A stretch of DNA of 61,636 nt, from positions 1-61,636 of the forward strand of contig NATW01000111.1 in assembly GCA_003094555.1 (NCBI GenBank), given 5' to 3'. A model generated the notes under the pieces. That model was not told where the DNA came from. It worked only from the letters and a program-made list of their open reading frames with translations, and did not search any database. Positions 25,239-61,636 of the stretch are shown piece by piece (the stretch's first letter is position 1; every line of letters begins with the position of its first letter). Both the position numbers and the translations under genes were made by a program. The stretch is from a gamma proteobacterium symbiont of Ctena orbiculata (GTDB taxonomy: Bacteria > Pseudomonadota > Gammaproteobacteria > Chromatiales > Chromatiaceae).

Positions 25239-25684
25239 CTAGTCGCCAGGTACAGCATCGTTTTGATTTACTGATATCAATGAACGCACCTGCGCCAGTA
25301 TCGATAACTCATCCCAATCAATACCACCGACCACACGTGCTACAACCAATCCCCGGGTATTGACGATATATGAAGTATGCAGTGCCAACACCTGCCATTG
25401 CCTCAGCATATGGGAGTCCCGGTCCAAAAGCACCGAGTATATCAGCTGCACGTTGCAGATCCGGCAGCTCTATTGATGCAGGGTGAACACCAGGTCGCCC
25501 AAAAACTGACTATGTACGCACGCTCCCGGTAATCAAGCCTTTGGTGTATCTCTCCCATCATATCGGCCAGGAAAAAGTCTGCTGCCGGTTTTTGTACTGT
25601 GTAGGCACGTATACCCAATCCGGTAGACCATGCGAGCGTTGGTGCAAACCGGATATAGAGTGTTACCAGCGTGACGGCTTTCAT
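25239..25684 (-). pseudogene. Broken TlpA-like thioredoxin gene
   Basis: The reading from CAT 25682-25684 (minus strand) gives the front of an exported TlpA-like thioredoxin, with AADFFLADMMGEIHQRLDY and the active site FWATWCSPC. Just after the CPC site, around 25470, the frame is lost (one extra base) and stops near 25442. The C-terminal half (VLLDRDSHMLRQWQVLALHT, VVGGIDWDELSIL) continues in yet another frame from about 25451 to 25239. Roughly 30 residues expected between ELPDLQ and VLLDRD are missing. So there is at least one frameshift plus a deletion. The gene is probably dead. Confidence 0.75.
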
Positions 25685-25775: not shown

Positions 25776-26210
25776 TTAGTAGGCTTTCTGTCCGGGAAAG
25801 GCCAACCCATCTCTATACAGGGCTTCATATTCAAATGCTGCCTGTTTCCGGGACCAGACCGTGACGAATTTGCCACCCTTCTTGACACGAAACTCATCGA
25901 CCTGAATCGCATTGAACCGTGGATGTTTTTCACCCTTCACCTGCACGTTATCCAGTACATATCTGACTTTAATATCTCTGGACAGGTTCGGCATGAAGAG
26001 ATAATCACCCTCGCCCACCATCAAGACAAAATAGGACTCGAGTGCAACATGCGGATCAAGTTTTTCAACTGGACAGGTAACGCCATTGTGTGCGCTGTCA
26101 TGACCATTGACCGTACCAGTGAATGTTTCAGCATAAACCCACGGTGGTGTAGCAATCATGGCTACCGTTGCCAATGCCATTTTGATCCCGGCAAGTGATC
26201 TGAATTTCAT
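25776..26210 (-). CDS. Hypothetical exported protein
   Basis: 144 aa from the ATG at 26208-26210, with AGGTAAT upstream on the coding strand and a signal peptide MKFRSLAGIKMALATVAMIA... cleaved near VYA. The mature part (about 117 aa) is beta-rich with one cysteine (VTCPVEKLDPH) and a region with basic residues near the end. Its downstream neighbour is the broken TlpA-like gene, perhaps its former redox partner. Not a family I recognise. Confidence 0.65.
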   Translation of the reverse strand: MKFRSLAGIKMALATVAMIATPPWVYAETFTGTVNGHDSAHNGVTCPVEKLDPHVALESYFVLMVGEGDYLFMPNLSRDIKVRYVLDNVQVKGEKHPRFNAIQVDEFRVKKGGKFVTVWSRKQAAFEYEALYRDGLAFPGQKAY

Positions 26211-26569
26211 TCTATTACCTTCCTCCACAATAAACATGTTGTGAGATATATAAAAACCAGAAGTTTCTGTTACAACAGCTCTGGAAACTCCCATCACATG
26301 AATTTGCGAGTTAGAGGGGAAGACGGATTCAATAAATTTGGAAAGTGCTAATAAATAACAATAGCCAGTCCTCTACAGCTTTATGTAAGTCGAGTGATGA
26401 CTTAGACAGCTTAAAAGCAAGCTAATTTAAATGCGCTATAGCGTGATTTTCTTATTCATCACATTGCCCTGAAAATATTTATCCATTAACACCCGCAGAC
26501 TCTCAGGTATCGCTATCTCAGATTATAATGCAGGGTATCGATATATTGTAAAGAATGGAGCGACTGGGG
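26211..26569. other. AT-rich intergenic stretch
   Basis: About 360 bp between two minus-strand genes. Low GC compared with the core genes around it. No supportable gene; it must hold the promoter of the exported protein ending at 25776. Confidence 0.4.
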
Positions 26570-31739: not shown

Positions 31740-32330
31740 AAATTAATCCTTTATCTAAAATCAGGGCAAACACTGGCATACTCATCGCTGCTGGTCAGCA
31801 TGATATCAGCCTGCAGCCAATTGCACCTGGTGTAAATACCGGACTTGGCGCCGCGCTGAGAATCGGTTATCTGTTTTGATCCTTCAATCGGGAAAAGAGC
31901 TATGAAAAGCAGATTCCAACCTAAGCATATTATCTCTCGTCAGTTCAGCCTAAGCATGAGGCTGCATTGACAGATGAACGACCAGGCCGCACCTGCATAG
32001 CATGGCCAGGATAGCAGTATGGGGAGTGACGTCAGAATAAGAATAAACAGCTGGCGGACGGGCATGACAGATTGTCAGTATCCGGGATTTTTACTGCCAA
32101 ATTGGCAAGTATTTCAATATTTTTGGTTAATGATTATTCTCTTCAATTATCTATCCCCTCATATCAACTCAGTTATTAATTCTAGATAATTCAATAGTAT
32201 AGGACTCTTAGCGCTTACAGATTCGATAGCAGTATCGCTTCTTGGTGTGGTTATTGCGAACTGCTTATGCCGATAAGGCATAAACATATCTGAATTACAC
32301 AATTATAAATACTATTTTGGAGATCGAATC
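31740..32330. other. Long upstream region of the Met-rich protein gene
   Basis: 591 bp without a supportable gene. Near its 3' end are two short inverted repeats: CGATA-N4-TATCG (32224-32237) and TTATGCC-GATAA-GGCATAA (32265-32283). They could be an operator or a 5'-leader hairpin for the gene starting at 32331. The DNA is AT-rich from about 32090. Confidence 0.5.
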
Positions 32331-32822
32331 ATGAAGAAACTAGCCTCAGTCATCACTCTCGCATTGACCCTCTCAAGTGCACCAATCGCGTTTGCGGATA
32401 AGCAATCTGGCATGAGCGGTATGTCCGGTATGGATGGCATGAGTGGCATGTCGGGTATGGGTGGTATGTCCGGCATGTCCGGTATGGGCGGCATGTCCGG
32501 CATGGGCGGTATGTCCGGCATGTCCGGCATGTCCGGCATGTCCGGCATGGGCGGCATGTCCGGCATGGGCGGTATGTCTGGCATGGGTGGCATGTCCGGC
32601 ATGAGCGGTATGTCCGGCATGAGCGGTATGTCGGGGATGTATGGTACCTATAAGGTGACACCTCAAGGTGTTCATCTATATCCAGCTGGTATGAGCGGGA
32701 TGTCCGGCATGAGTGGTATGTCCGGCATGGGCGGTATGTCCGGCATGAGTGGTATGTCCGGCATGGGCGGCATGTCAGGCATGGGCGGTATGTCCGGCAT
32801 GGGCGGCATGTCAGGGCAATAA
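32331..32822 (+). CDS. Exported methionine-rich tripeptide-repeat protein (MSG/MGG)n
   Basis: 163 aa. Sec signal peptide MKKLASVITLALTLSSAPIA with cleavage after AFA at about residue 22. The mature protein is 25 consecutive triplets of the form Met-Ser-Gly or Met-Gly-Gly (one Met-Asp-Gly), an 18-aa non-repeat spacer (MYGTYKVTPQGVHLYPAG), then 14 more triplets and a final Gln. Apart from the spacer there are no aromatic, basic or Cys residues, so Met makes up about a third of the chain. SD TTTGGAGAT lies upstream. Possible jobs: oxidant sink (compare MrpX of Azospira), copper(I) binding, or surface polymer. The convergent neighbour is a lipoprotein MsrA, which favours the first. The family is not known to me. 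Confidence 0.88.
   Translation: MKKLASVITLALTLSSAPIAFADKQSGMSGMSGMDGMSGMSGMGGMSGMSGMGGMSGMGGMSGMSGMSGMSGMGGMSGMGGMSGMGGMSGMSGMSGMSGMSGMYGTYKVTPQGVHLYPAGMSGMSGMSGMSGMGGMSGMSGMSGMGGMSGMGGMSGMGGMSGQ
32408..32819 (+). repeat. 9-bp coding repeat array (ATGTCCGGC type)
   Basis: Near-perfect 9-bp units with variants ATGTCCGGC, ATGAGCGGT and ATGGGCGGC, each coding Met-Ser-Gly or Met-Gly-Gly. They occupy two blocks interrupted at about 32639-32690. The codons vary synonymously, so selection keeps the peptide while the DNA drifts. Such an array should change length by slippage. Confidence 0.88.
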
Positions 32823-32985
32823 AAAGAAGAGATTAATAATTGAAACCTAACAACAATGACACTTAGCTGACTGACTAGCGCTTAATACAATAGGAGAGAG
32901 AAAAGAGACATTCAGGACTACAAAGGTCTCTTATTGATAAAGGGTAGATATAAAAAGATACAAAACAGATTACCCCATTTGGTAT

Positions 32986-33034
32986 AATCGCATATCAGCC
33001 GATTTTCATAATCGGCGTTATGCGATTTTTTTTT
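32986..33034. terminator. Strong bidirectional terminator between the Met-rich gene and msrA
   Basis: Nested stems AATCGCATA / TATGCGATT (32986-32994, 33019-33027) and GCCGATT / AATCGGC (32998-33004, 33010-33016), followed by nine T. It separates the convergent genes. Confidence 0.92.
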
Positions 33035-33091
33035 GTAGTTCCCATACCACTTCTATTCCTAGCAGGCGTTTTCTAAAGACGGCTCTGTGAG

Positions 33092-33850
33092 TCATTGGTT
33101 TTGCATCGGGGTTGGCATATGCCTGACAACTTCCTCGGACGGTTTGCTATGGTTAACAGGCTTGTCAGCTGTTCCGGTCTCCGTTACAGGTTCGTCACGA
33201 TATTCTGTGTAATCCACATAACGCTCTTCACCCCAATTCTCGTCCACGAACTGATAACGACCTGAGTTGAATGTATAGAAGTTATATCGTATCGGGTTCT
33301 TCTTGTAGTAATCCTGGTGTCTCTCTTCAGCCTTGTAGAATTTTTTGAATGGAACAATCTCAATTGTCACCGGTTTCTCATAGCGTCCCGAGGCGATCAA
33401 CTCATCGCGGGAACGTTCCGCTATTTTTTTCTGTTTGGTATTGTGATAGAAGATGGCCGGTCGGTATTGCTTGCCACGGTCGTAGAACTGGCCCTGAGAA
33501 TCGGTGGGATCCATCATCCGCCATAGGCCCTGAATCAAACCCGAATAGCTGATGATATTTGGATCGTAATAGACCTGCACAGCTTCCGTATGTCCAGTTC
33601 CTCCTCTTGCGACTTTCCGGTAGGTCGGGTTTTTATCCCTGCCTCCACTATAACCGGAAACAGCCTGTTTAACCCCGGGAAGCATTTCAAATCCGGCTTC
33701 GACACACCAGAAGCAGCCGCCGGCAAAAGTCGCAACCGACAATCCCCGCAGTTTCTCTTCAGACAATCCCGCCTGTTCAGTAACCGAATTGGCGCAGCCT
33801 GAAAACAATCCCATCAATCCCAGCAGGCCACTCCACACAATTAATCTCAT
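33092..33850 (-). CDS. msrA: Peptide methionine sulfoxide reductase A, lipoprotein form
   Basis: 252 aa, longer than a plain MsrA because it adds an N-terminal lipoprotein signal (LLGLMGLFSGC, lipid at about Cys19) and an acidic-to-basic tail of about 35 aa after the domain. The MsrA active site ATFAGGCFWCVEAGFEMLPG (catalytic first Cys of GCFWC) and the substrate-site GTGHTEAVQVYYDP are intact. It reduces Met-S-sulfoxide in proteins; as a lipoprotein it works in the periplasm or at the outer membrane. Convergent to the Met-rich exported protein, its most obvious substrate by inference. Confidence 0.93.
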   Translation of the reverse strand: MRLIVWSGLLGLMGLFSGCANSVTEQAGLSEEKLRGLSVATFAGGCFWCVEAGFEMLPGVKQAVSGYSGGRDKNPTYRKVARGGTGHTEAVQVYYDPNIISYSGLIQGLWRMMDPTDSQGQFYDRGKQYRPAIFYHNTKQKKIAERSRDELIASGRYEKPVTIEIVPFKKFYKAEERHQDYYKKNPIRYNFYTFNSGRYQFVDENWGEERYVDYTEYRDEPVTETGTADKPVNHSKPSEEVVRHMPTPMQNQ

Positions 33851-61560: not shown

Positions 61561-61636
61561 GGGCCTGTTAACACTAATCCAATGCGCCCCGCAGGAAGTG
61601 CCCTTGGGGTGCGCCCCGCAGGAAGTGCCCTTGGGG
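61561..61636. mobile_element. Start of a second copy of the miniature element, cut by the window end
   Basis: GGGCCTGTTAACACTAATCC and five more bases (25 bp in all, 61561-61585) are identical to the terminal repeat of the element at 19458, and TA precedes it (61559-61560). Inside, a 27-bp unit GCGCCCCGCAGGAAGTGCCC... is repeated directly in tandem (61584-61610, then 61611-61636). The same unit occurs once, inverted and with one mismatch, inside the first element (19580-19610). Confidence 0.8.

Follow-up and report, generated by a model that had tools for sequence, protein, structure and literature searches.

Periplasmic methionine (Met) cycling has been published for perchlorate reducers, in which the Met-rich protein MrpX operates with YedYZ (MsrPQ); some MrpX islands also carry exported MsrA and MsrB (PMC4623255). 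Enzymes of the dimethyl sulfoxide (DMSO) reductase type act on Met sulfoxide as well: Escherichia coli DmsABC reduces it, and dmsA is induced by hypochlorous acid (HOCl) or hydrogen peroxide (PMC12096835); a periplasmic DMSO reductase reduces protein-bound Met sulfoxide, only in the S form according to earlier work, and prefers GAGM(O)QAEED over TTPGYM(O)EEWNK (PMC7402097). In Haemophilus influenzae, DmsABC is tied to host survival (PMC8340005). The present study concerns a stretch of 61,636 nucleotides (contig NATW01000111.1, referred to as the window), one contig of a 4.07 Mb genome that belongs to the genus Candidatus (Ca.) Thiodiazotropha, symbionts of lucinid clams. It encodes an exported protein built of Met-x-Gly triplets, relatives of which are most commonly found in an operon with a penta-heme cytochrome c and a DmsA-type molybdoenzyme. 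In view of the DmsABC, DMSO reductase and MrpX precedents, the Met-x-Gly proteins are read here as an exported, rechargeable methionine pool that is reduced mainly by a respiratory-type molybdoenzyme, a system like MrpX/YedYZ but made of other parts; we give this reading a somewhat better than even chance of being correct.

The window protein (32331..32822, forward strand, stop codon included) has 163 residues and, as a preliminary description of this DNA had stated, is an exported Met-x-Gly protein with 39 triplets and one 18-residue spacer. Residues 1-22 (32331..32396) read as a Sec-type signal peptide, MKKLASVITLALTLSSAPIAFA, with the cleavage site placed by eye, and DKQSG stands between it and a first array of 25 triplets (32412..32636). 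This is followed by the spacer MYGTYKVTPQGVHLYPAG (32637..32690), which is conserved and has the motif [TY][YF]xx[TS]PxG...P, and by a second array of 14 triplets (32691..32816), after which Gln is the last residue. The triplets comprise 28 MSG, 10 MGG and 1 MDG, the spacer opens with MYG, and the mature protein contains 40 Met in 141 residues. Both arrays are seen in the sequence and in a tandem repeat scan (best row of Tandem Repeats Finder, score 294, 32409-32812), and the stretch is a true array. Because synonymous codons vary, with all six Ser codons (TCC 16, TCA 4, AGT 4, AGC 4, TCT 2 and TCG 2) and three Gly codons (GGC 32, GGT 18 and GGG 3) in use in the gene, the array has been kept at the level of the protein. 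The Pfam and NCBIfam profile libraries gave only collagen-type matches to the window protein. The score for collagen itself (PF01391) is 37.7 bits, above the cut-off of 27.2, but the match tracks the Gly at every third position, and collagen is further ruled out by a Pro content of 1.6% of array residues in the family, spacers included.

In the commonest neighborhood of the family, established by fetching 60 regions around the matches and clustering their genes, a set that was later extended, genes for a CxxCH sensor kinase, a sigma-54-type response regulator, secreted proteins of 250 and 94 residues and the Met-x-Gly protein are joined by those for the penta-heme cytochrome c, the molybdoenzyme with a Tat-like start, a DmsB-type subunit, a TorD-type chaperone and a ferredoxin-like protein; some operons have an extra cytochrome c. 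Among genes of the YF subtype, named like the TY subtype of the window for its spacer, the cytochrome and molybdoenzyme genes come next on the same strand in 61 of the 64 cases with at least 2 kb of downstream sequence, and 84 of 86 evaluable genes are linked to the operon; the exceptions are L119, whose contig also carries the operon-linked L130, and L150. Across all subtypes, the cytochrome gene is downstream on the same strand in 79 of 141 cases, and many of the others end at a contig edge. The core of the preliminary description, an exported pool with a sulfoxide reductase of its own, is strongly supported, though mostly by a reductase other than the one it named: the constant partner across the family is this DmsA/YnfE-type operon and not MsrA.

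The array and the cytochrome also occur together at the level of whole genomes. The penta-heme cytochrome was detected at E 1e-40 in 42 of the 146 genomes of a family sample, and the array search matched 69 at 1e-3, of which 44 were kept (best E < 1e-9; G102 was dropped for internal stops). Both are present in 39 genomes, the cytochrome alone in 3, the array alone in 5 and neither in 99 (Fisher p 2e-26). In the cytochrome-only genomes, that of G065 lies 156 bases from a contig edge, that of G067 is broken by stops, and G133 represents a true absence at the operon. A class sample of 369 genomes had array matches at 1e-8 in 22, of which 16 were kept after reading; G157, G261 and G500 have no array, and the matches in G200, G268 and G382 are to unrelated Met-rich proteins. 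Here, the cytochrome is found in 15 genomes, in 14 of them with the array directly upstream or at an adjoining contig edge and in G268 without it, giving 14 genomes with both, 1 with the cytochrome only, 2 with the array only and 352 with neither (Fisher p 2e-22). This is strong co-occurrence, by Fisher tests that ignore phylogeny.

The nearest solved chains to the molybdoenzyme are those of DMSO reductase 1eu1 (252 bits) and of 7l5i (249.5 bits), which we take to be the Met-sulfoxide reductase MtsZ. In the alignment, Ser215 falls on Ser147 of 1eu1, presumably the Mo ligand, and it does not vary in any of 19 aligned enzymes, whose identity to the first is 80-97%. Each of six Thiodiazotropha genomes contains one strong match to TIGR02166 (dmsA_ynfE; 624-631 bits), the next being at 217-224 bits. 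PF00174, the YedY/MsrP type, has no match in any of these six genomes and matches in 2 of the 9 genomes searched overall. The enzyme is a candidate reductase for the Met sulfoxide of the arrays.

The family pattern, in which the spacer motif comes directly after two triplets, returned at least 80 stretches from a collection covering 84,980 species. Among the matches listed, 58 of 80 carry titles of sulfur-oxidizing lineages at the level of genus or order or of symbionts of animals (Thiodiazotropha, Sedimenticola, tubeworm and lucinid symbionts, Thiobacillus and other Hydrogenophilales, Thiohalocapsa, Thiolapillus, Thioalkalivibrio, Tepidiphilus and Chromatiales), lineages that we take to be sulfur oxidizers; 19 are labeled only Gammaproteobacteria or "bacterium," one is labeled Clostridia (L141, with the operon), and L117 and L147 proved on reading to have no array. 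The family table of 141 distinct genes, which excludes L001-L032 and L173-L199 because they merely repeat short parts of regions already fetched, had duplicates removed by identical array only, so that differing assemblies may count one species twice and relatives are not independent; 94 of its genes have the YF spacer and 8 the TY spacer. In all recovered arrays taken together, Met makes up 28.5% of the residues, His 0.13% and Cys 0.06%, with a median of 43 Met per array, many arrays being cut by contig ends. The repeat unit varies between lineages, from MSG/MGG to MYG/MRG in L239, QKGMSG in L240 and MNG/MYG/MRG in L241, and it is therefore Met with Gly, not Ser, that is conserved. The window genome has two further Met-x-Gly genes on other contigs, one (C170) with the spacer SGYFKITPQGQIFFYPASG and a third (C51) whose front half is rich in Tyr, Gly and Pro and whose end motif is GTYRISPSGEILLFP; the spacer motif recurs in both, as in other genomes.

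Next to the window array, the preliminary description had placed a convergent MsrA of lipoprotein type, and this is confirmed (PF01625, E 5.6e-61; 269 bp between the genes). The protein (33092..33850, reverse strand) has 252 residues, a lipoprotein-like start ending in ...GLFSGC (by eye) and the active site GGCFWC; it scores 189.2 bits against TIGR00401 (cut-off 108.1) and contains the catalytic GCFWC. A terminator-like hairpin with a T-run, recognized by eye and not listed by the scan, lies between the two genes (32986..33034, forward strand). Relatives of this MsrA are MsrA-MsrB fusions (MsrAB) of 384-386 residues. The window MsrA lacks the MsrB domain and stops where it would start, the window holds no trace of MsrB (best E 2.7), and the one MsrB of the genome is encoded elsewhere; by this comparison, the window MsrA is a shortened MsrAB that has lost its MsrB half. 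The orthologues of the array gene in G007, G096 and G118 each face a 384-residue lipoprotein-type MsrAB, and overall the stand-alone array faces MsrA or MsrAB in 4 of 6 Thiodiazotropha genomes. In another genus (G036), a 386-residue MsrAB is encoded about 8 kb from an operon-type array. MsrA is found in the locus of 3 of the 8 TY genes and of the window itself, all four being from Thiodiazotropha. As a general partner of the family, MsrA was rejected, being within the fetched flank of only 5 of 60 loci, 4 of which are orthologues in one genus; PF01625 occurs in 135 of the 146 family genomes, and its mere presence is therefore uninformative. The pairing with MsrA is thus suggestive but not general. 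A complete lack of association with Met-sulfoxide reductases, one of the outcomes that the preliminary description had named as counting against it, does not apply where MsrA is paired with the array; whether the wider family also escapes it depends on the DmsA-type enzyme reducing Met sulfoxide, as we infer.

On the reading as a methionine pool, periplasmic oxidants (peroxide, hypohalous acids or by-products of sulfide oxidation) would turn the exposed Met residues of the array into Met sulfoxide, and a dedicated reductase would restore them, so that each chain could act many times. In the main form of the system, the downstream DmsA/YnfE-type molybdoenzyme would be the reductase, fed through the penta-heme cytochrome c and the DmsB-type iron-sulfur subunit; for the stand-alone form seen in the window, this part would fall to the lipoprotein-type MsrA, and in its relatives to MsrAB. 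That the stand-alone form faces a member of a second, unrelated family of sulfoxide reductases is counted in favor of this reading, as is the lack of a PF00174 match in all six Thiodiazotropha genomes searched. The use of array Met sulfoxide as substrate, the path of the electrons, the nature of the oxidant and the gain to the cell are all inferred.

Several observations weigh against it. The molybdoenzyme scores 631.4 bits against TIGR02166, below the curated cut-off of 777.7, which none of the six Thiodiazotropha genomes exceeds, and the DmsB-type subunit scores 189 bits against TIGR02951, below the cut-off of 214; the substrate could therefore be DMSO, an N-oxide, selenate or another compound. 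The operon is present without the array in G133 and G268; in G014, G016, G021, G030 and G056, the fetched operon regions lack an array and the arrays are elsewhere in the genome, and second copies of the cytochrome in G020, G068 and G099, about 8 kb from the first, are not accompanied by a separate array within the stretches fetched. Only 2 of the 8 genes of the TY subtype, that of the window, are linked to the operon, and the pairing with MsrA amounts to one genus-level inheritance and one case about 8 kb away; even within the genus, Ca. T. endoloripes keeps a lipoprotein-type MsrA of 76% identity although the fetched 18 kb contain no array, contrary to a strict pairing. A dmsA mutant of H. 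influenzae resists HOCl better than the wild type (PMC8340005), and the 36 named genes that Ca. T. endolucinida has in the top 100 of all three hosts do not include a DMSO reductase (PMC13137333, Table 1). Finally, many of the hosts are sulfur oxidizers, and the role may be specific to sulfur metabolism.

The resemblance of the operon to systems for DMSO or selenate respiration, with DmsA, DmsB, TorD and a weakly DmsE-like cytochrome, could mean that the molybdoenzyme respires a small oxide (DMSO, an N-oxide or selenate) and that the Met-x-Gly protein is a scaffold, tether or assembly factor and no redox substrate, and the retention of the operon without the array in G133 and G268 fits such an accessory. 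A scaffold, however, leaves unexplained why Met is kept at 28.5% while the residue next to it changes between lineages, and also why the stand-alone form is linked to MsrA(B), and we regard this explanation as rather unlikely. The prevalence of names of sulfur oxidizers and symbionts among the matches listed (58 of 80, the physiology being presumed) would also suit a protein with a structural or surface role in sulfur globules or the cell envelope, in which Met and the aromatic spacers form a hydrophobic, self-associating coat that the reductases merely repair, and the Tyr/Gly/Pro-rich half of the third paralogue resembles sulfur globule proteins by eye. Against this, neither the window protein nor the third paralogue matches a sulfur-globule family in Pfam or NCBIfam, the comparison being with profiles and not directly with Sgp sequences; linkage recurs with a single reductase operon, 2 of 60 loci have a dsrP-like gene nearby, and no sox family was recognized, partly by eye, in the 26 listed neighbor clusters. 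A coat protein is accordingly judged unlikely.

Binding of Cu(I), which the preliminary description had put forward as its main alternative, fares worse. The regular spacing corresponds to MxxM, a known Cu(I) motif, and the array could serve as a sponge for Cu(I) or Ag(I); one gene resembling a multicopper oxidase by eye is near the array in L038. No copper family was recognized, however, in the 26 neighbor clusters of at least 3 loci (some judged by eye only), and the arrays are nearly devoid of His and Cys at the proportions given above. A metal sponge is considered very improbable. The low-complexity, charge-poor composition with regularly placed Met is compatible with a redox-switched condensate or gel, the chains of which associate when reduced and dissolve when oxidized and are reset by the reductase, in the manner of the Met-rich region of yeast Pbp1, whose droplets melt on Met oxidation and re-form with Msr (PMC8394241). 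This possibility, which we consider quite unlikely, needs the same Met-sulfoxide chemistry as the methionine pool. A further variant, to which we assign only a very small chance, is that the protein is a polymeric store of electron acceptor, in which poly-Met-sulfoxide formed under oxic conditions is respired by the DmsA-type enzyme under anoxia, with two electrons per residue; if so, oxidizing power would be held in protein as reducing power is held in sulfur globules, an arrangement suited to symbionts that move between oxic and anoxic conditions.

A site resembling the -24/-12 elements of sigma-54 promoters, TGGTGTGGTTATTGCG (32243..32258, forward strand), ends 72 nucleotides before the start codon of the window array gene, and a matching site, TGGTGTGTTTTTTGCA, is found upstream of three Thiodiazotropha orthologues (L033-L035). 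A large part of the operon type has a comparable site ahead of the 94-residue gene, about 440-520 nucleotides before the array. Of 103 upstream regions, among which relatives are counted repeatedly, 66 attain a score of 14.5, as against 6.0% of 3000 random 500-bp stretches. The regulator encoded in the operon may control the array.

Other features of these loci may be recorded. In the window, a 70-residue remnant of a TlpA/thioredoxin-like gene (25242..25451, reverse strand) corresponds to the C-terminal part only (59-60 of 70 residues align, at 77-80% identity) of a gene that stands 1.8-2.0 kb from the array in G007, G096 and G118; also in the window (25779..26297, reverse strand) is a homologue of a small exported protein of unknown family, which those genomes encode between the array and the thioredoxin-like gene. 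The extreme end of the contig, 61583-61636, is a perfect 27-bp tandem duplication, and a plasmid origin of the window was rejected, there being no match in the plasmid collection searched. A thioredoxin-NHL fusion adjoins TY-type arrays (L046:4746-6305 and L065:2979-4592; profile-checked in L046 and L041), and for six DmsA-type operons a relative is encoded at a distance of 7-8 kb from the array; the fusion is a candidate supplier of reductant. Near the operon in L054 (14235-18140), there are genes for a DsrP-like membrane protein, a ferredoxin-type protein and a tri-heme cytochrome, with similar genes beside the TY-type array in L065, possibly a quinol-oxidizing module. The 123 nucleotides between the array and cytochrome genes of L054 have an RNA folding z of -1.86, which was not used.

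The 250-residue protein of the operon (L041:10770-11525, L054:8741-9523 and relatives) consists of tandem GWxxxxxDGSLxLxP repeats and a conserved C-terminal domain and has no match in Pfam or NCBIfam; it looks like the spacer, but profile comparisons gave E-values of 0.27 to 3.3, and a common domain is not claimed. A 218-residue protein beside a response regulator (L062:118-771, reverse strand) has three copies of the spacer motif (profile E 6e-9) and no Met-x-Gly array, indicating that the motif can stand alone. Proteins of the third paralogue type (L068:1415-2215, reverse strand; L083:8660-9280, forward strand) combine a Tyr/Gly/Pro-rich front, a looser Met-rich part and the spacer motif, in neighborhoods without the operon. 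Other exported Met-rich proteins, read by eye in L217, L220, L223, L225 and L229, include one fusion to an apparent FKBP-type isomerase, two with portions resembling EF-hands, two with long Ala-rich tails and one beside a P-type-ATPase-like gene.

Petersen et al. 2016 (PMC6872982) found that a DMSO-reductase-like gene ranks with the most strongly expressed genes of Ca. T. endoloripes, and according to a 2021 review, the substrate of the highly expressed DMSO-reductase-like enzyme of lucinid symbionts is unverified (PMC8090883). The genome of Ca. T. endoloripes (G063) has a single strong DmsA-type match (626 bits; next 218), directly downstream of a Met-x-Gly gene (L050), so that the highly expressed gene is probably that of the array-linked molybdoenzyme, for which a specific, testable substrate is thereby offered. 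In lucinid symbionts, dmsAB has been placed near a soxY variant (PMC11237559). No description of the array together with the operon was found among the matches listed in the open-access literature; there is nothing on the array in the consulted parts of PMC8269255, PMC13137333 and PMC7787665, nor in PMC11171427, in which the terms do not occur, and the consulted main text of PMC7787665, on the Riftia symbiont, does not mention DMSO or sulfoxide. It should be noted that the Met-x-Gly protein would be hard to detect by trypsin-based proteomics, since the mature window protein yields tryptic pieces of 84 and 55 residues and that of Ca. T. endoloripes none of 7-30 residues.

Among the systems with which this locus can be compared, the Met-dense region of yeast Pbp1/ataxin-2 is similar in that the reversible oxidation of its Met, together with Msr, determines its state, but that region is cytosolic, eukaryotic and irregular, and no sequence relation is claimed (PMC8394241). 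The window MsrA and its relatives resemble other exported MsrAB in being MsrA or MsrA-MsrB of lipoprotein type; the window copy differs in having no MsrB and in being faced by the array gene. With DmsABC, YnfE and DorA, the operon shares a Mo enzyme with a Tat-like start and a Ser at the ligand position, a DmsB-type subunit and a TorD-type chaperone, whereas its scores are below the curated family cut-offs, the penta-heme cytochrome gene is directly upstream, and there is a gene for a Met-rich partner. In MrpX/YedYZ, a small exported Met-rich protein is encoded with a Met-sulfoxide reductase (PMC4623255); here, the exported Met-rich protein adjoins MsrA in the window and, in the main form, a DmsA-type partner that would have this activity. 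In contrast with MrpX, compared here by its description only, the present proteins have a strict Met-x-Gly array, the molybdoenzyme is of the DmsA and not the YedY type and is accompanied by cytochromes, and the operon carries a kinase and a sigma-54-type regulator. If the methionine pool is the correct interpretation, the MrpX idea extends beyond the chlorine defense of perchlorate reducers to a system of respiratory type that many sulfur oxidizers possess. In these bacteria, clam and tubeworm symbionts among them, the genes of the exported Met-repeat proteins lie next to enzymes of kinds that restore oxidized Met, an arrangement that points to a store, antioxidant or redox, which can be recharged and is located outside the cell interior.

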